A stretch of 64,000 bases of DNA from an uncultured Polaribacter sp. (lineage in GTDB: Bacteria; Bacteroidota; Bacteroidia; Flavobacteriales; Flavobacteriaceae). A program made the translations under genes and the position numbers. The notes under the pieces were generated by a model that saw only the letters and a list, made by a program, of their open reading frames with translations, was not told the origin of the DNA and did no database searches. Shown here one piece after another: positions 29,586 to 36,303 of this stretch (positions within the stretch are counted from its first letter, which is position 1; every line of letters begins with the position of its first letter). The stretch covers positions 1,116,001 through 1,180,000 of the forward strand of contig NZ_CANMBY010000001.1 of the NCBI RefSeq assembly GCF_947496195.1, written 5' to 3'.

Positions 29586-29861
29586 ATGGCTTGGTCTAAA
29601 GAAAAAATACTGATAAACATAGAAAACTTAATGAGAAGTAAGTTTACTAATCCTAAAGAAGCATTTGAGTATTTTGATAGTGATAATGATGGGCAGTTAA
29701 CAAAAGCCGATCTTAAACAACTTTTAAAAGAAGCCAAAGTTAGTAGCTTAATAAGAGGCTTAGTTGCAGAATTTATGTTAAATGAATTTGACAAATCAAA
29801 ATCTGGAACTGTAAATTGGGAAGAGTTTAAAACAGTAGCACATACCTATGTTAAAGAATAG
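29586..29861 (+). CDS. EF-hand calcium-binding protein
   Basis: 91 residues, no signal peptide. Two EF-hand loops: D31-x-D33-x-D35-G36 ending at D42, and D69-x-S71-x-S73-G74 ending at E80. The first loop ends in Asp where Glu is usual. A calmodulin-like pair of hands in a small cytoplasmic protein suggests calcium binding or sensing; no target is evident. It follows the TolB-like gene by 68 bases and is convergent with the purine nucleoside phosphorylase gene. Confidence 0.82.
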   Translation: MAWSKEKILINIENLMRSKFTNPKEAFEYFDSDNDGQLTKADLKQLLKEAKVSSLIRGLVAEFMLNEFDKSKSGTVNWEEFKTVAHTYVKE

Positions 29862-29913: not shown

Positions 29914-30732
29914 TTATAAATTTTTGATTACTTCTTTAAAAAGAGTAATCATTTTAGGTTCAGCTTCACCAGCAATAGCAATAATTTCTGCAATATTAAC
30001 AGGCTGTAAATTTTTAGGATCGCATTCATCTGTTAAAACTGAGATAGCAGCACAAGGTAAGTTTAATTGTTTAGCAACAATAACTTCTGGAACAGTGCTC
30101 ATACCTACAGCATCTGTTTCTAAAATTTGTAGCATTCTATATTCTGCTCTTGTTTCTAATTGTGGTCCTAAAACACTAGCATAAACACCTGTATGTAGTT
30201 TAATATTCTCTTTTTTGGCGACTTCAACTATTTTTGAATTAATATATTTTGAATATGGTTCTAACATATCAGCAAAAATATTTCCAAAGTCATTTGCACC
30301 TTTAAATGCTAGTGGAGAACTGCCTTGCAAATTAATATGATCTTCAATTAACATTAAATCACCCTTTTTGTAGTTTAGATTTATAGCTCCTGCTGCATTA
30401 GATATTAATAAATTTTTAATGCCTAAACCATGCATGGTTCTAATACCATAAGTTACTTCCCAAGAATTGTAGCCTTCATACAAATGAAATCGACCAGACA
30501 TCACAACAACTTTTTTGCCTGATAAATCTCCAAAAATTAATTTCCCAGAATGAAACTCTACTGTTGCTTCTGGAAAATGTGGTATTTCTGAATAGGCGAT
30601 TTCTTTTTCAATTGAAATTTCATGAATTAATTTCCCTAAACCTGTACCTAAAACTACGCCTATTTCAGGATTGGTAAATCCATTTTCTTTTAAAAATAAA
30701 ATACTTTCTTGAAGTTGTTGCTGTTTATTCAT
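29914..30732 (-). CDS. Purine nucleoside phosphorylase (trimeric type I)
   Basis: 272 residues. Phosphorolysis of purine nucleosides to base and (deoxy)ribose-1-phosphate in the cytoplasm. Family marks: GVVLGTGLG phosphate loop, EFHSGKLIFG, MSGRFHLYEGY, ISNAAGAIN and EYRMLQ..ETDAVGMSTVPE. It is the last gene of the arsenosugar cluster, four bases after the glycosyltransferase gene. In that setting it may remove adenine from a 5'-deoxy-5'-dimethylarsinoyl adenosine intermediate, though ordinary purine salvage is equally compatible with the sequence. Confidence 0.93.
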   Translation of the reverse strand: MNKQQQLQESILFLKENGFTNPEIGVVLGTGLGKLIHEISIEKEIAYSEIPHFPEATVEFHSGKLIFGDLSGKKVVVMSGRFHLYEGYNSWEVTYGIRTMHGLGIKNLLISNAAGAINLNYKKGDLMLIEDHINLQGSSPLAFKGANDFGNIFADMLEPYSKYINSKIVEVAKKENIKLHTGVYASVLGPQLETRAEYRMLQILETDAVGMSTVPEVIVAKQLNLPCAAISVLTDECDPKNLQPVNIAEIIAIAGEAEPKMITLFKEVIKNL

Positions 30733-30736
30733 ATTG

Positions 30737-31339
30737 CTATTTTAAAAAGTGCTGAAATGCTTTATGATCTTTAATATCTTCAAAAACATCGATATCATTT
30801 AATTCTTCTAACAAATGTATGGTATTCTCTTTTAAGTCTTTTAATGTATCTTTTCTTACAGAAGATGTACCCCAATCTTTATTCTTAAAGATTTGTTCAT
30901 GAAGTTTAGTTAATCCTAATAAATAATAACCACCATCTTTTGCAGGTCCAATTACTACATCATTAGAATCTAAATAAGAAAAAGCTTGTTCTATATGATT
31001 TGGTGTTAAATCATACAAATCACTACCAATGATTATAATTTTTTTATACCCTTCATCAAATCCGTGTTTAAAAGCATTTAGCATTCTAATCCCTAAATCT
31101 TCTCCTTTTTGAAGGTGTTTTTGATAAATTGATGCATCCCAAATATCATTTTCTCTTACTTTAACAGAATAGTAAACTGCTTTATCTGCATTTACTTTTG
31201 ATGAAATTTCATTCGTTTTTTTTAGTAAAAATTTATAGATTTCGAGAGCAGTTTCATCTCCAACAGTTTTTGCTAAACGTGTTTTAGCTTTACCAAGCTC
31301 AGGGTTTCTAGTAAAAATTAAAAGAAGATTTTTAGTCAT
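30737..31339 (-). CDS. DUF2064/TIGR04282-type glycosyltransferase of arsenosugar clusters
   Basis: 200 residues from the ATG at 31339 (MTKNLLLIFTRNPELGKAKT), which is better than the longer reading from 31390 because the extra residues only overlap the rhodanese gene. The nucleotidyl/glycosyltransferase A-type fold is shown by GKAKTRLAK, IIIGSDLYDLT and VVIGPAKDGGYYLLGL. In arsenosugar clusters this family is assigned sugar transfer; the acceptor here is unknown. It overlaps the rhodanese gene end by eight bases and precedes the PNP gene. Confidence 0.88.
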   Translation of the reverse strand: MTKNLLLIFTRNPELGKAKTRLAKTVGDETALEIYKFLLKKTNEISSKVNADKAVYYSVKVRENDIWDASIYQKHLQKGEDLGIRMLNAFKHGFDEGYKKIIIIGSDLYDLTPNHIEQAFSYLDSNDVVIGPAKDGGYYLLGLTKLHEQIFKNKDWGTSSVRKDTLKDLKENTIHLLEELNDIDVFEDIKDHKAFQHFLK

Positions 31340-31826
31340 AAATTTTCTTTCCTTTTTTAAGCCATTTGCCCCAATCTTTACTAAAAGCATGTACTTTTTC
31401 TGTAGGTTTGTTTAAAGTATCTACAACTGTATAGTTATTATTTTTCCATTCAAAAATACCACCATATAAGTTGTAAACATTATTATAACCAGCTTCAATA
31501 AGTTTGTGAGCAACTGTCTCTGAACGAATACCCAAAGAGCAATAAACAACAATTTTTGTGTTTTTATCTTCAGGTAATTTTGCTAAAGTTTCTTTTAGTT
31601 TAAAATTATCATAGCCAACACAAATGGCATTTTTTAAATGACTTACTTTAAACTCTTTTTCTTCTCTTGCATCTAATAAAATTGCATCAGTTTTTGGTAA
31701 AGCTAGAGTTTCTACAGACATGTAAGGAACATTTCTTTTGTTCCATTTGTTTAGTAGTTTATCTAGTTTTTTTTGCCCAAAAGTTGAGGTGCTAACTAGT
31801 ATAAATAGGATGAAGAGTTTTTTCAT
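31332..31826 (-). CDS. Exported rhodanese-domain protein
   Basis: 164 residues from the ATG at 31826 (MKKLFILFILVSTSTFGQ, signal peptide). A single rhodanese domain follows: ILLDAREEKEFKVSHLKNA and the active-site cysteine in VVYCSLGIRSETVAHKL, then YNNVYNLYGGIFEWKN. The C-terminal tail is lysine- and tryptophan-rich (FSKDWGKWLKKGKK). It would handle sulfane sulfur outside the cytoplasm. It sits between the lipoyl-like and glycosyltransferase genes of the arsenosugar cluster, overlapping the latter by eight bases. Its part in the pathway is unknown. Confidence 0.88.
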   Translation of the reverse strand: MKKLFILFILVSTSTFGQKKLDKLLNKWNKRNVPYMSVETLALPKTDAILLDAREEKEFKVSHLKNAICVGYDNFKLKETLAKLPEDKNTKIVVYCSLGIRSETVAHKLIEAGYNNVYNLYGGIFEWKNNNYTVVDTLNKPTEKVHAFSKDWGKWLKKGKKIYD

Positions 31827-31840
31827 AAAGATTAAAGATT

Positions 31841-32155
31841 TCAAATTCCAATTATTTCAGATATAAGGTCACCTTTTTCTATTTTTTGTTGCTCTACTTT
31901 GAAGTAATTTATTCTTCCAGTTACAAATGATTCAAATTCAATTTGATTTTTATCATTTTCAATACAACATATCTTTTGTCCAAGTTTTACTTTCTCCCCT
32001 TTATTTACATACCACTTTTTTAGCCTCCATTCTTGGTTGTCTTGTTTTTCAAGAGGAAAAATTATTTCTTGTTTTTCACCCTTTTCAAGTAATTTTGAAT
32101 TTATTGTGGGGCTCTTTTTTATTTTTTCAATTTGATTTAAAAACCAATTTATCAT
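31841..32155 (-). CDS. Free-standing lipoyl/biotinyl-like domain protein
   Basis: 104 residues. A short N-terminal helix (MINWFLNQIEKIKK) is followed from about residue 43 by a hammerhead-like fold: WYVNKGEKVKLGQKICCIENDK, with K69 in the position of the modified lysine (usual ExDKA, here ENDKNQIEFE), then VTGRINYFKVEQQKIEKGDLI. A C63-C64 pair precedes the lysine. No enzyme domain is attached. It lies within the arsenosugar cluster, 25 bases after the arsM gene and 14 before the rhodanese ATG. Whether K69 is lipoylated is unknown. Confidence 0.78.
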   Translation of the reverse strand: MINWFLNQIEKIKKSPTINSKLLEKGEKQEIIFPLEKQDNQEWRLKKWYVNKGEKVKLGQKICCIENDKNQIEFESFVTGRINYFKVEQQKIEKGDLISEIIGI

Positions 32156-32180
32156 TTGATATTAAAGCTAAAAAGTAATA

Positions 32181-33149
32181 CTAACAACAACCACCTCCAT
32201 CATAATGAAAAGTAGATTCTGAAATAAAAATATCATCTCTACCTAAACTAGCTAAAGCTCCTGCAGTTTTATCGCAAATAGCAAGAGGTTGATTTTTAAG
32301 TAGTACATGACCAGCTTTGTCATCAAAATAATCTTCTTCTCCAAAATAAATTGCTGCTTTACCCGTAAAAATACAAGGGCCATCTGCAGGCATAGGGTCT
32401 TTAATGGCAGCAACTTCTATAGACTCAATGTAAATCAACTCATCTGTTGGATAATGCTTTGGATCTAAGATTCTATAAGGTTTTCTTGCTCTAATTTCTA
32501 TTGTTCCAAAACCAGCATCTGTTAATGCTTTTACATAATCTGCAATAGACAAACTTCCACTTAAACAAAGTGCACGTAAACGTTCGTCATTTCTTAATTC
32601 ATCATTCATGTCTTGTTCACAAGTTGGATCACTCATTACCAAACGTCCATGAGGTTTTAAAACTCTATACATTTCTGCAATCGCCTTTTTTAAATCATCA
32701 GATTTAAAAATATTGAACAAACAATTTTGCGCTGCTACATCAATAGAATTGTCTTCAACAGGTAAATTCATTGCATCACCTTTACGTAAATCTACAAACT
32801 CACTTTTAAACCAATCATTTTGTTCTTCAGCAATTTTAAAGTTTTTTCTTGAGGCTTCTAGCATTTCATCAACCACATCTAAACCTATAACTCCGCCTTT
32901 AGTTCTGTTGAAATAAGCAAATTGTAACAATTCCATACCTCCACCAACACCAACATATAACATTTTTGGGTTGTTTGTTAAATCTCTTGCATGCACAGTA
33001 GAACCACAACCGTAATTCATCTCTTGCATAATTCTTGGGATTTTTAATCCTGGTAATTCCCAAATAGGATTTGTAGTACAGCAAAGCCCAACATCAGGAG
33101 TTAAGGCTGCTTCTTTATAGACGTCTTTTGTAGTTTCTAAATAACTCAT
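32181..33149 (-). CDS. arsM: Arsenosugar-pathway arsenite methyltransferase ArsM
   Basis: 322 residues. SAM-dependent methyltransferase that converts arsenite to methylated forms. SAM motif YVGVGGGMELL (about 65-75), DVVDEML, and AQNCLFNIFKSDDLKKAI. Candidate arsenic-binding cysteines are C23-C24, C48, C145-region Cys (AQNC) and the terminal pair C321-C322 in GGGCC. N-terminus and the C-terminal extension (residues about 240-322, GPCIFTGKAAIYFG) mark the subfamily found beside ArsS. The gene is 16 bases from arsS. Cytoplasmic. Confidence 0.9.
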   Translation of the reverse strand: MSYLETTKDVYKEAALTPDVGLCCTTNPIWELPGLKIPRIMQEMNYGCGSTVHARDLTNNPKMLYVGVGGGMELLQFAYFNRTKGGVIGLDVVDEMLEASRKNFKIAEEQNDWFKSEFVDLRKGDAMNLPVEDNSIDVAAQNCLFNIFKSDDLKKAIAEMYRVLKPHGRLVMSDPTCEQDMNDELRNDERLRALCLSGSLSIADYVKALTDAGFGTIEIRARKPYRILDPKHYPTDELIYIESIEVAAIKDPMPADGPCIFTGKAAIYFGEEDYFDDKAGHVLLKNQPLAICDKTAGALASLGRDDIFISESTFHYDGGGCC

Positions 33150-33165
33150 TTTAATATATTTTTTG

Positions 33166-34221
33166 TTAGGCTACAGTTCCTTGGCAGCTACTACCTGCTC
33201 CAGCTGTACATCCATAACAATGTTGATTTATAATAATATTTCTATCTTGAAGAAGATCTTCATTGTAATCTTTAATATGTTTTACTTTACTTGCTACTTT
33301 TAAATTTAGCATTTGATTAAAATCGCAATCGTATAACCAACCATTCCAACTAACAGAAAGTGTGTTTGTACACATTACATTAGCTACTGCTGACGGATTA
33401 TAAGCATCAACTAAAGCATACATATAGTCTTCGTAATTTTCTGATGCAATTAAATAATCTAAAAATCTACTTATTGGTAAATTTGTAATGGCAAAAAGAT
33501 GATGAAAATCGATATTAAAATCGGCTTTTAAAGCTTTTTTAAAATCTGCTTCTAAAGCCATTTGATCTCCAGGTAAAAATGCTCCTGAAGGATTGTAAAC
33601 TAAATCTAGTTTTAAATCAGAATTAGGCATTCCATAACCTACTGCATTTAGTTCTTGTAATGCTTTTATAGATTTATCGAAAACACCATCTCCACGTTGT
33701 TTGTCTGTTTTTCCACGGGTCCAATGAGGCATAGAAGAAACTACATGAACATTATGTTTTTTAAAGAATTCTGGTAAATCGTAATACTTTTTATTAGCTC
33801 TTATGATAGTTAAATTAGAACGCACAATAAAGTCTTTAATACCTGCTTTTGATGCTTCTTCTACAAACCATCTAAAATTAGGATTCATTTCTGGGGCACC
33901 ACCTGTTAAATCTAAAGTATGCGCTCCAGTATTTTTAATTACATCTAAACATTGTTGCATGGTTTCTACAGTCATAATTTCTTTACGATCAGGACCAGCA
34001 TCAACATGACAATGTTCACATACTTGATTACACATATATCCTAGATTGATTTGTAAAATCTCAAGCTTTTTAGGACGTAAAGGAAACTGATTTGTCTCCT
34101 TAATTTTTGCTGCAAAAGTTGGTAACTCTCCATCAGCGAAAATTCCGTTTGAAAGAATTTCTAATTGACGAGAAGTATTTGCAATATCGTTATTTCTTGC
34201 TTTTAGCGATTTTGTAGCCAT
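33166..34221 (-). CDS. arsS: Arsenosugar biosynthesis radical SAM protein ArsS
   Basis: 351 residues. Radical SAM cluster motif C64-x3-C68-x2-C71 in GYMCNQVCEHCHVDAGP, glycine motif LDLTGGAPEMN, and the family-specific C-terminus with C335, C338 and C346 in CYGCTAGAGSSC. ArsS proteins join the 5'-deoxyadenosyl group to dimethylarsenic. Some family members carry selenocysteine; here all positions are ordinary Cys codons. Adjacent arsM, CMD and glycosyltransferase genes support the assignment. Start at the ATG preceded by an AT-rich hairpin spacer. Confidence 0.94.
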   Translation of the reverse strand: MATKSLKARNNDIANTSRQLEILSNGIFADGELPTFAAKIKETNQFPLRPKKLEILQINLGYMCNQVCEHCHVDAGPDRKEIMTVETMQQCLDVIKNTGAHTLDLTGGAPEMNPNFRWFVEEASKAGIKDFIVRSNLTIIRANKKYYDLPEFFKKHNVHVVSSMPHWTRGKTDKQRGDGVFDKSIKALQELNAVGYGMPNSDLKLDLVYNPSGAFLPGDQMALEADFKKALKADFNIDFHHLFAITNLPISRFLDYLIASENYEDYMYALVDAYNPSAVANVMCTNTLSVSWNGWLYDCDFNQMLNLKVASKVKHIKDYNEDLLQDRNIIINQHCYGCTAGAGSSCQGTVA

Positions 34222-34229
34222 TTATTTAA

Positions 34230-34292
34230 TTACGAATTTCAAATTAAAAATTACGAATTGATAAATTATTCATTCGTAATTTGTAATTGATT
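34230..34292. repeat. AT-rich hairpin spacer between arsS and CMD genes
   Basis: Repeated ATTACGAATT-type units; one pair forms a perfect 11-base stem AAATTACGAAT (34248-34258) / ATTCGTAATTT (34272-34282) with a 13-base loop. No T tract follows, so it is not a clear terminator. Confidence 0.55.
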
Positions 34293-34628
34293 TTACATTT
34301 CAAGTTTATTCACTTTGTTCATCATTTGTACTCCATGAACAAGAGTTGCTCCACTTTTAATGGCAGCTCCTACATGAATAGCTTCCATCATTTCTTCTTT
34401 GGTAATACCTCTTTGTAAACCGTCTTTAGTATAAGCATCTATACAATAAGGGCATTGCTCTGTATGAGCTACAGCTAATGCTATCAAAGATTTTTCGCGA
34501 GCTGTAAGGGCTCCTTCTTCAAAAACTTTTCCATAATAATCAAAAAACTTGTTTCCAAGCTCTTCACTCCATTCTGTTATTTTACCGAATTTTCTTAAAT
34601 CGGCTGCATCATAATAGTTTTTAGACAT
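34293..34628 (-). CDS. Arsenosugar-associated CMD/AhpD-like protein
   Basis: 111 residues. Carboxymuconolactone decarboxylase family with the AhpD-type redox motif C59-P-Y-C62 in HTEQCPYCIDAY and the helical ALTAREKSLIALAVAH lead. This is the peroxidase-like small protein typical of ArsS clusters. It may reduce or shuttle thiols for the arsenic intermediates; the reaction has not been inferred further. It lies 71 bases before arsS. Confidence 0.9.
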   Translation of the reverse strand: MSKNYYDAADLRKFGKITEWSEELGNKFFDYYGKVFEEGALTAREKSLIALAVAHTEQCPYCIDAYTKDGLQRGITKEEMMEAIHVGAAIKSGATLVHGVQMMNKVNKLEM

Positions 34629-34666
34629 AAGTTAATTTGTAATTAAGAAGACGAAAGATACAGAAA

Positions 34667-35377
34667 TTATTTACCATTTAAAGACCAGTCATATTTTAAA
34701 TAACTGATTTTTGCATTCGATTTAATTTCAGTTTCTGAGTATTTATTTAAATAATCTATAATTGAACCATTTTTAGTAAAATCACCTTTAAACCAGTTAA
34801 AAATTTCTGAAATTTGAATTCTTTTTTCAGTTATTTTATTTCTATTAGGGTCGTTTATAAAAGCCTTCATTAACTTAGTTAATTCTGCATCTATATTTTC
34901 TTCTGTAAATGCTACATTACCAAGTTTTGGGCAAGACATAGAAGCACAATTTACACCTACATGAATTTTTGGATCAAATAATTTTTTTCTTAAAATTTGA
35001 TGTTCAATATGATCTAAAGTATAAGTCGTATTTCCAACTTTAGCAAATGGAATTTTCCAAGCATTTTTATCTTTTCTTTCGATTTTCATTATAGATTTTA
35101 GAGGATAATTTTCTAAAATTAATTTGATGGTATAAGCATTATAGGCGTTAATCCAAAACGCTCTTTTTTTGTTGTCAGACCAAGAAGATTCAGGAGTCGT
35201 TTTTTCTAAATATTTGATATAACTATCTAGTTTAGCCTCATCTTTTTTAAATGATTGGTAGCCTACAATTCCTTCATCAGAGACATGTTGTTGTAATAAA
35301 TCATTAAATATAGAGGTTTGTGCATTTGTATGTAAAAGCATTAAAAATGCAATGAATGTAAAAAGTATTTTCTTCAT
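34667..35377 (-). CDS. Exported DUF547 protein
   Basis: 236 residues. Signal peptide MKKILFTFIAFLMLLHTNAQ. DUF547 marks: KKRAFWINAYNAYTIKLILE near residue 64, HVGVNCASMSCPKLG near residue 139, and a C-terminal FNWFKGDF. DUF547 proteins are papain-like in fold by family knowledge, with the Cys-Ser-Cys region as a possible catalytic site. Function unknown. It is 38 bases upstream of the CMD gene, so probably the first gene of the arsenosugar operon, but it could be independent. Confidence 0.85.
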   Translation of the reverse strand: MKKILFTFIAFLMLLHTNAQTSIFNDLLQQHVSDEGIVGYQSFKKDEAKLDSYIKYLEKTTPESSWSDNKKRAFWINAYNAYTIKLILENYPLKSIMKIERKDKNAWKIPFAKVGNTTYTLDHIEHQILRKKLFDPKIHVGVNCASMSCPKLGNVAFTEENIDAELTKLMKAFINDPNRNKITEKRIQISEIFNWFKGDFTKNGSIIDYLNKYSETEIKSNAKISYLKYDWSLNGK

Positions 35378-35431: not shown

Positions 35432-36133
35432 TTAATCTAAAATTTCTTCATTTATTTTTAGGTTAAATCTTTTCTTAAAAGCATAAACAACTAAATATAA
35501 TATAGGTGTGTCTAAAGCAGCAATCATTATTTTAAATAAAACGCCACTAATAAGAAGTCCTAAAAAGTTATCCCAGTTAATAATTCCGAAAGAACAAAGT
35601 AGTATTAAAACAGTAAGTGTATCTATAAATTGAGAAGAAAAAGTAGAGAAATTATTACGTAACCAAAGATGTTTACCTTTAGTAAGTTGTTTCCAAAAAT
35701 GATAGACTTTAATATCAATAAATTGAGCAAAAAGATAAGCTAACATTGATGCTAAAACTGCTAATGGTGCAGCACCAAAAACATTTACAAATAAACCATC
35801 ATTTACTGGAGACCAAGGTGTAGCAGGTACATTTTTAGAGACATAAATAATTATTAATGAGAAAAATGAAGCAAAAATTCCTGCAATAACAACTTCGTTG
35901 GCTTTTCTTTTACCATAGATTTCAGATAAAATATCTGTAATTAAAAAAGTTATTGGGTAAGGTAATAAGCCTACAGAAACTTCAAATAATTTTGTGTCAA
36001 ATATTTCAATATCAAAAGGATACCAGTAAAAAAACTTTTGAAATATTAAATTTGAGGTAACTAAAGAGGCTATAAAAAGAGCTGCAAGAATTAAATAGAT
36101 TCTATTGGCTAATAATTTATCTTTTGATGTCAT
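35432..36133 (-). CDS. VUT/YhhQ-family queuosine precursor transporter
   Basis: 233 residues from the ATG at 36133 (MTSKDKLLANRIYLILAALF); the longer reading from 36196 adds 21 residues without similarity to the family and covers a TAACTTCG promoter-like sequence. Six membrane spans. Motifs: PYPITFLITDILSEIYGKRKA, LFAQFIDIKVYHFWK, LRNNFSTFSSQFIDTLT. The family imports queuine or preQ precursors into the cytoplasm. Runs in the same direction as the arsenosugar genes but shows no link in function. Confidence 0.9.
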   Translation of the reverse strand: MTSKDKLLANRIYLILAALFIASLVTSNLIFQKFFYWYPFDIEIFDTKLFEVSVGLLPYPITFLITDILSEIYGKRKANEVVIAGIFASFFSLIIIYVSKNVPATPWSPVNDGLFVNVFGAAPLAVLASMLAYLFAQFIDIKVYHFWKQLTKGKHLWLRNNFSTFSSQFIDTLTVLILLCSFGIINWDNFLGLLISGVLFKIMIAALDTPILYLVVYAFKKRFNLKINEEILD

Positions 36134-36303
36134 AAAAGCGAAGTTAATAAATAAAACAACGTGTTTCTTCTTATCTAAAATTTGATTGACTTGCATAACA
36201 CTATTTACACTACTTGTTTGTGATCATTTTAAGAATCTAAACTAAATTTCGGTATAGAAAAAGTGAGTAATAAAAGCAGGTGTTAGCTTCTGATAAAAAT
36301 GAT

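Follow-up and report, generated by a model that had tools for sequence, protein, structure and literature searches.

An arsenosugar-type gene cluster of a Polaribacter genome with a proposed ribose-handling part and an apparent lipoyl-like insert

A stretch of 64,000 nt from an uncultured Polaribacter sp. of the family Flavobacteriaceae (assembly GCF_947496195.1, contig NZ_CANMBY010000001.1, positions 1,116,001 to 1,180,000), here called the window, carries eight minus-strand genes between positions 29914 and 35377. With a probability of roughly 60%, we read them as an arsenosugar-type operon of known kind that would consist of an arsenic part (the CMD/AhpD-like protein, ArsS and ArsM) and a ribose-handling part (a rhodanese, a TIGR04282 protein, a purine-nucleoside phosphorylase (PNP) and a DUF547 protein), in which PNP would be followed by TIGR04282 and finally by a TIGR04283 protein. 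Between both parts, a stray lipoyl-like gene would have been inserted that plays no role in the conserved pathway. The eight genes named in an earlier sequence-only reading are real open reading frames (ORFs) and were rightly named: six of them (ArsM, ArsS, CMD, TIGR04282, rhodanese and PNP) exceed curated NCBIfam cut-offs, and the DUF547 and lipoyl-like proteins are recognized by Pfam only. From DUF547 to PNP, the intergenic gaps amount to 38, 71, 16, 25, 14, −8 and 4 nt, and because eight ORFs on one strand follow each other at such short distances, the spacing is consistent with a single operon.

Within the arsenic part, ArsM (32181..33149, minus strand) reaches 581.5 bits with the model for arsenosugar-type arsenite methyltransferases (NF038099, cut-off 400), and the radical SAM protein ArsS (33166..34221, minus) reaches 439 bits with TIGR04167 (cut-off 300), which, together with the conserved neighbours, bears out the assignment to arsenosugar biosynthesis. 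Two TIGR04167 matches were found in the genome, of which only the ArsS of the cluster lies above the cut-off. It is a Cys form with no in-frame stop and displays the CxxxCxxC motif as well as HCYGCTAGAGSSC; the motif and the Cys-rich tail, HCxGCTAG(A/S)GSSC, pointed out by the sequence-only reading were recovered in all 112 loci including the window, and the GLCCTT motif and GGGCC end of ArsM in 76 of 76. The CMD/AhpD-like protein (34293..34628, minus) contains a CPYC motif and scores 195.2 bits with TIGR04169 (cut-off 120). ArsM would methylate As(III), and ArsS would add a 5'-deoxyadenosyl group to the dimethylated arsenic in a radical reaction, as reported for these families elsewhere. The primary ArsS papers are reportedly those of Xue 2019 and Cheng 2021.

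In Synechocystis, SsArsS works with SsArsM in the initial steps (PMC8552651). The window locus resembles this pathway in that ArsM and ArsS are adjacent and both exceed curated cut-offs, but it differs as a flavobacterial operon with DUF547, rhodanese, TIGR04282, PNP and a lineage-specific lipoyl-like gene. Further sources describe a radical SAM enzyme that adenosylates arsenic during arsenosugar biosynthesis (PMC12159101), count TIGR04167 among the selenoprotein families (PMC13188914), from whose selenoprotein members the window ArsS is distinguished as a Cys form, and propose a nucleosidase route for an algal arsenolipid (PMC10456119).

Of 249 genomes from the same family, 184 have TIGR04167 above its cut-off, as do 49 of 58 from the same genus. 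From these, a subset of 111 ArsS loci other than that of the window was compared, with preference mostly given to the best scores and to longer contigs: 76 came from the family draw, including one of the window's own genus, and the remaining 35 are further loci of that genus; with 8 loci of lipoyl-like homologues and one locus of the own genome, 120 stretches were included (handles with L and G denote loci and genomes). On the same strand and within 10 kb of ArsS, CMD is present in 109 of the 111 loci, TIGR04282 in 83, DUF547 in 80, ArsM and PNP in 75 each, rhodanese in 74, a TIGR04283-like gene (f7) in 42 and a fatty-acid-hydroxylase-like gene (f9) in 31, the identities of f7 and f9 resting on one member each (Pfam and NCBIfam). 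Since the same genes co-occur across many genomes of the family, the grouping is, judged by sequence, beyond chance, and the window locus is by the same measure a member of a locus type that is already called 'arsenosugar biosynthesis' in NCBIfam. Most of the ArsS neighbours recur in these loci, so the conserved linkage presupposed by the sequence-only reading was not refuted. The commonest full order, CMD-ArsS-RHOD-GT-PNP-ArsM-(f9)-DUF547-f7 (RHOD, rhodanese; GT, TIGR04282), occurs in 32 of the 76 family loci, and 18 of them hold CMD-ArsS alone from this gene set. The order of the window, with ArsM right after ArsS and DUF547 ahead of CMD, was found again within its genus. Among 14 named control genomes, TIGR04167, TIGR04282 and TIGR04283 exceeded their cut-offs in one each, NF006054 in six, and NF045521 and NF038099 in none.

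The division into two parts is carried by the rhodanese (31332..31826, minus), an ordinary member of NF045521 (rhoda_near_glyco; 211 bits, cut-off 145), which lies beside TIGR04282 and shows no difference from this model, whose name states no function. It has an N-terminal hydrophobic stretch and the active loop CSLGIRS. Throughout the compared rhodaneses, the CxxGxRS loop is kept (75/75), a six-residue active-site loop of the C-X4-R form, and a crude hydropathy test, made without a signal-peptide predictor, gave a hydrophobic N-terminus for 74 of 75. A C-X5-R loop is the mark of Acr2/Cdc25-type arsenate reductases. With ORFs taken from the first start codon, the rhodanese lies directly upstream of TIGR04282 in 68 of 74 loci, at a distance of at most 200 nt in 67 and overlapping in 45. 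In the window, ATG 31826 is the likelier rhodanese start than TTG 31844, and ATG 31339 the likelier TIGR04282 start than 31390; with these revised starts both genes overlap by 8 nt, also the commonest overlap among the relatives (29 of 68 pairs).

NF045521 exceeds its cut-off in 153 of the 249 family genomes, including 12 without ArsS above cut-off (10 genera; completeness 99-100% for 11 and 87% for G158). All twelve hold TIGR04282 above cut-off, directly adjacent to the rhodanese in 11, and none holds ArsM above cut-off; the pair is thereby found in 11 of the 65 genomes lacking ArsS above cut-off. Because the pair persists without ArsS or ArsM above cut-off, the rhodanese is tied to TIGR04282, and within the family, as far as gene content tells, its partners are TIGR04282 and PNP rather than the arsenic enzymes. 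In the twelve ArsS-less loci (L200-L211), of which about 1.5 kb of flank was visible, rhodanese was counted in 11, TIGR04282 in 12, PNP in 11, DUF547 in 8 and a TIGR04283-like gene in 5. Some genomes with ArsS also hold the rhodanese block far from it, as in G032 and G160, both more than 600 kb apart. The rhodanese would act, probably in the cell envelope, together with either TIGR04282 or the product of that protein, and would be dispensable for the arsenic steps. Upstream of the rhodanese in the ArsS-less block, an ADP-ribosylglycohydrolase-family gene (L200) and a divergent GH32 gene (L206) were observed, with other loci similar by eye, possibly a hint at an arsenic-free role of the block.

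Several observations weigh against so clean a separation. Of the 184 genomes with ArsS above cut-off, 141 have the rhodanese, compared with 12 of the 65 others (odds ratio 14.5, Fisher p 1.5e-16, kinship ignored), which is what a pathway link would predict. Furthermore, 15 of the 75 ArsS loci with PNP lack the rhodanese, and in another locus a 48-aa remnant of a seemingly decayed rhodanese lies between ArsM and TIGR04282 (L178:11423-11569), both speaking against a strict partnership of rhodanese, TIGR04282 and PNP. Outside the family, NF045521 exceeds its cut-off in 7 of 20 genomes from further families of the class, in neither of 2 from another family of the order and in none of 111 from other classes; TIGR04282 adjoins the rhodanese in only two of these seven (L222 and L226), which argues against a universal partnership. 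Within about 1.5 kb, DUF547 is a neighbour in L220, L222 and L223, and L221, L224 and L225 show neither gene.

The sequence-only reading had suspected an arsenic-specific sulfur chemistry, in which the rhodanese would donate sulfane sulfur and thio-arsenosugars would be the product of the cluster. The co-occurrence with ArsS, the presence of the rhodanese in two-thirds of the ArsS loci with its loop intact and the naming of thio-arsenosugars in the literature would suit this idea, yet the rhodanese-TIGR04282 pair is kept in 11 genomes in which neither ArsS nor ArsM exceeds its cut-off, the loci with PNP and no rhodanese, or just its remnant, fit poorly, and the rhodanese N-terminus is signal-peptide-like while none was noticed on the arsenic enzymes, for which no dedicated search was made. 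The idea gained no support from the comparison, and we regard it as very improbable. A simpler alternative to an independent function of the block is that once-fused clusters lost ArsM and ArsS, the ArsS-less blocks being their remnants. The rhodanese being far commoner with ArsS than without, and TIGR04282 exceeding its cut-off in just 16 of the 65 ArsS-less genomes, agree with such a loss; however, in 10 of the 12 loci, whose genomes span 10 genera, all three genes (rhodanese, TIGR04282 and PNP) are intact and keep their order, one further locus has the first two without PNP, and the 3.5-kb stretches showed no sign of decay. Such a loss is a tentative explanation, which we hold with less than even confidence but give serious weight.

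For the TIGR04282/DUF2064 protein (30737..31339, minus; TIGR04282 214.2 bits, cut-off 134), the label 'DUF2064 glycosyltransferase' of the sequence-only reading holds for the family, while the glycosyltransferase role is not supported, since the protein is closer to nucleotidyltransferases by sequence and fold. The sequence exceeds the Pfam CofC cut-off (PF01983, 31.3 bits, cut-off 22), and its structure model (pLDDT 93.1) was compared with known structures by VIA-align. The best match was 3cgx, a 'putative nucleotide-diphospho-sugar transferase' from structural genomics (Z 27.1, rmsd 1.7, 198 residues aligned), followed by 3-phosphoglycerate guanylyltransferase (7p97; Z 20.1, rmsd 2.5, 185 aligned), the probable nucleotidyltransferase 2i5e, which we take to be CofC (Z 19.4, rmsd 2.3, 182 aligned), Rv2983, presumably FbiD (6bwg/6bwh; Z 17.4, rmsd 3.0, 188 aligned), and the cytidylyltransferases IspD and TarI (Z 14.8). 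The model thus shares the fold of the CofC/FbiD-type guanylyltransferases (Z 17.3-20.1, rmsd 2.3-3.0), but with 38.4 bits the protein stays below the cut-off of 105 for F420 CofC (TIGR03552). A sequence search of the PDB returned 3cgx, designed ankyrin repeats, which were taken as chance, and 2i5e at an E-value of 0.21. Based on sequence and modelled fold, the protein is probably a CofC-like nucleotidyltransferase, although a shared fold by itself proves no function.

A true glycosyltransferase that adds the aglycone to arsinoyl-ribose would agree with the NCBIfam name of TIGR04282 and with the match of the model to mannosylglycerate synthase, a GT-A glycosyltransferase (Z 13.2-13.5); the folds of GT-A and CofC-type nucleotidyltransferases are related. 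This match and the fact that the function of the closest structural relative, 3cgx, was never tested count against a nucleotidyltransferase. However, mannosylglycerate synthase ranks below the nucleotidyltransferases, the leading structural matches besides 3cgx (Z 20.1-14.8) are all established or probable nucleotidyltransferases, and the Pfam CofC threshold is exceeded, so that we consider a glycosyltransferase unlikely. In the literature searched, no paper was found on the function of TIGR04282, DUF2064 or TIGR04283. Besides, a second, divergent TIGR04282/DUF2064 paralogue occurs in 31 of the 111 ArsS loci, in 13 of which a TetR regulator is also present and PNP is absent (L066, L082, L087, L091, L103, L107, L110, L112, L113, L118, L119, L137 and L142). 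The family-draw copies of this paralogue score 47-73 bits with the window protein, and one tested copy reached 97.3 bits with TIGR04282, less than the cut-off of 134.

PNP (29914..30732, minus; 321.8 bits, cut-off 218) is the only match to NF006054 in the window genome and single-copy in every one of 21 carriers among 26 genomes examined. It is also present in 7 of 12 genomes without ArsS and TIGR04282 above cut-off, and its arsenical role may therefore be incidental, a further point against the proposed pathway. Because it is single-copy and occurs without ArsS or TIGR04282, the enzyme is probably a general or housekeeping purine-nucleoside phosphorylase as well. The cluster had been called complete by the sequence-only reading, which does not hold: TIGR04283, the second glycosyltransferase of such clusters, has its sole match above cut-off in this genome at C1:688076 (192.1 bits, cut-off 182), and since it lies approximately 460 kb away, the cluster is incomplete by itself. 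A TIGR04283-like gene within 10 kb of ArsS was found in none of the 35 genus loci and in 42 of the 76 family loci. At its distant site in the own genome (L160, G000:C1:678500-698400), TIGR04283 adjoins a divergent DUF547 paralogue (49 bits) on the opposite strand.

Following ArsS, PNP would phosphorolyse the ArsS product to 5-arsinyl ribose-1-phosphate, TIGR04282 would convert this into an NDP-sugar, and the distant TIGR04283 protein would pass the riboside on to either glycerol or a lipid. With PNP yielding a sugar-1-phosphate and TIGR04283 being a family-2 glycosyltransferase, an intervening nucleotidyltransferase would be chemically sensible, and the order PNP, nucleotidyltransfer and TIGR04283 appears plausible. 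No paper tying the post-ArsS steps to genes was found in a literature search mostly outside subscription papers. The split into an arsenic and a ribose part leads to a concrete, testable order of reactions, with TIGR04282 acting as a nucleotidyltransferase between PNP and TIGR04283. More speculatively, and with less than even confidence on our side, rhodanese, TIGR04282, PNP, DUF547 and TIGR04283 could form an arsenic-independent route from a (5-modified) nucleoside via activated ribose to a riboside, with TIGR04282 as the nucleotidyltransferase and ArsM and ArsS docked on. If true, a broader ribosyl-glycoconjugate route would have arsenosugars among its products, and the database label 'arsenosugar biosynthesis glycosyltransferase', which falls on proteins in all 12 rhodanese-bearing genomes without ArsM or ArsS above cut-off, would be too narrow.

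The lipoyl/biotinyl-like domain protein (31841..32155, minus; 104 aa; PF00364, 46.6 bits, cut-off 22.1) had been suspected of adding thiol chemistry to the pathway, and such a general role finds no support, as the gene is missing from every one of the 111 other ArsS loci. L187 and L188, the closest loci, show an identical gene order but lack the gene, their ArsM and rhodanese ORFs being 75 nt apart and overlapping, respectively. Among the 249 family genomes, a single clear homologue was found (G229, locus L065; 43% identity), which lies on a different contig than the ArsS of that genome. Eight standalone homologues score 27-75 bits with the window protein, seven of them at 27-44 bits; lipoyl domains of large E2-like proteins reach up to about 36 bits, little below these seven, though the short proteins match one another. 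No ArsS was found in the eight homologue stretches, where the neighbouring genes were read by eye as a replicative helicase and an oxidoreductase near rpoC, among others. Because no other ArsS locus has the gene and the homologues lie away from ArsS, it is apparently an insert, specific to the lineage, that sits between ArsM and rhodanese and comes from a scattered family, which landed at this locus once as far as seen. The protein was rejected as a conserved pathway member.

Of nine aligned proteins, three retain the lipoyl lysine (the window protein, its closest homologue L065 and L069), and the other six have D, N, E, S, D and Q in its place. Its retention in the window protein and the closest homologue counts against a mere stray gene, and because both keep it, the window protein may have a private lipoylated role. 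Going further, the protein could be a dithiol carrier for arsenic in the window strain, supplying for example reducing equivalents to PNP-bound arsenate or As(III) to ArsM. Apart from the lysine, this is favoured by the position of the gene only 14-25 nt from its neighbours and by the citation, in one source, of PNP with dihydrolipoic acid as an arsenate reductase in mammalian systems (PMC12608789; dihydrolipoic acid from a reference title). The missing gene in the other ArsS loci, the unchanged gene order of L187 and L188 without it, the G229 homologue off its ArsS contig and the substituted lysine in six of nine family members make this carrier highly unlikely.

A foreign or mobile origin of the lipoyl-like gene was also considered and rejected, as no sign was seen apart from its absence elsewhere (GC 0.260, window 0.287); short direct repeats nearby are present but do not flank the gene on both sides. 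The PDB sequence search gave weak matches, mostly to lipoyl domains of 2-oxoacid dehydrogenase complexes, and a wider contig scan with the protein yielded 50 pattern matches and no confirmed one, with the own genome possibly outside the scan. In the genus relatives L177, L184, L189 and L190, the gap between ArsM and rhodanese, the same spot as occupied by the lipoyl-like gene in the window, is filled by short imperfect inverted motifs of the TCATTGC...GCAATGA type (by eye).

The DUF547 protein (34667..35377, minus; PF04784, 90.7 bits) has an N-terminal hydrophobic stretch and, in an alignment of 30 sequences, an invariant H and CASxSCP. A sequence search of the PDB gave no match for it. Its AlphaFold2 model (pLDDT 92.9) reached Z 4.6 in the best VIA-align match and gave nothing at E <= 0.001 with Foldseek against the PDB, which was not taken as evidence of a new fold.

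Regarding possible uptake, a SusC-like TonB receptor, a SusD-like lipoprotein and a sodium:solute symporter (identities checked for one member each in Pfam) lie within 10 kb of ArsS in 15 of the 111 loci, in 12 of them between ArsS and rhodanese (L066, L077, L115, L127, L133, L137, L141, L165, L171, L175, L181, L183, L189, L190 and L196 in total). This points to the uptake of an arsenosugar, a nucleoside or a related substance by these lineages.

A scan for promoter-like and terminator-like sites gave no excess over shuffled sequences (32 vs 35.5 and 2 vs 2.1, respectively). Flanking the cluster, a queuosine-precursor (YhhQ-type) transporter gene (35432..36196, minus; TIGR00697, 137.6 bits, cut-off 50.95) starts 54 nt upstream of DUF547 and is possibly on the same transcript; 19 of 35 genus loci and 4 of 76 family loci have such a gene at most 10 kb from ArsS. 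Downstream of the cluster, a 91-aa EF-hand pair protein is encoded on the opposite strand (29586-29861, plus).

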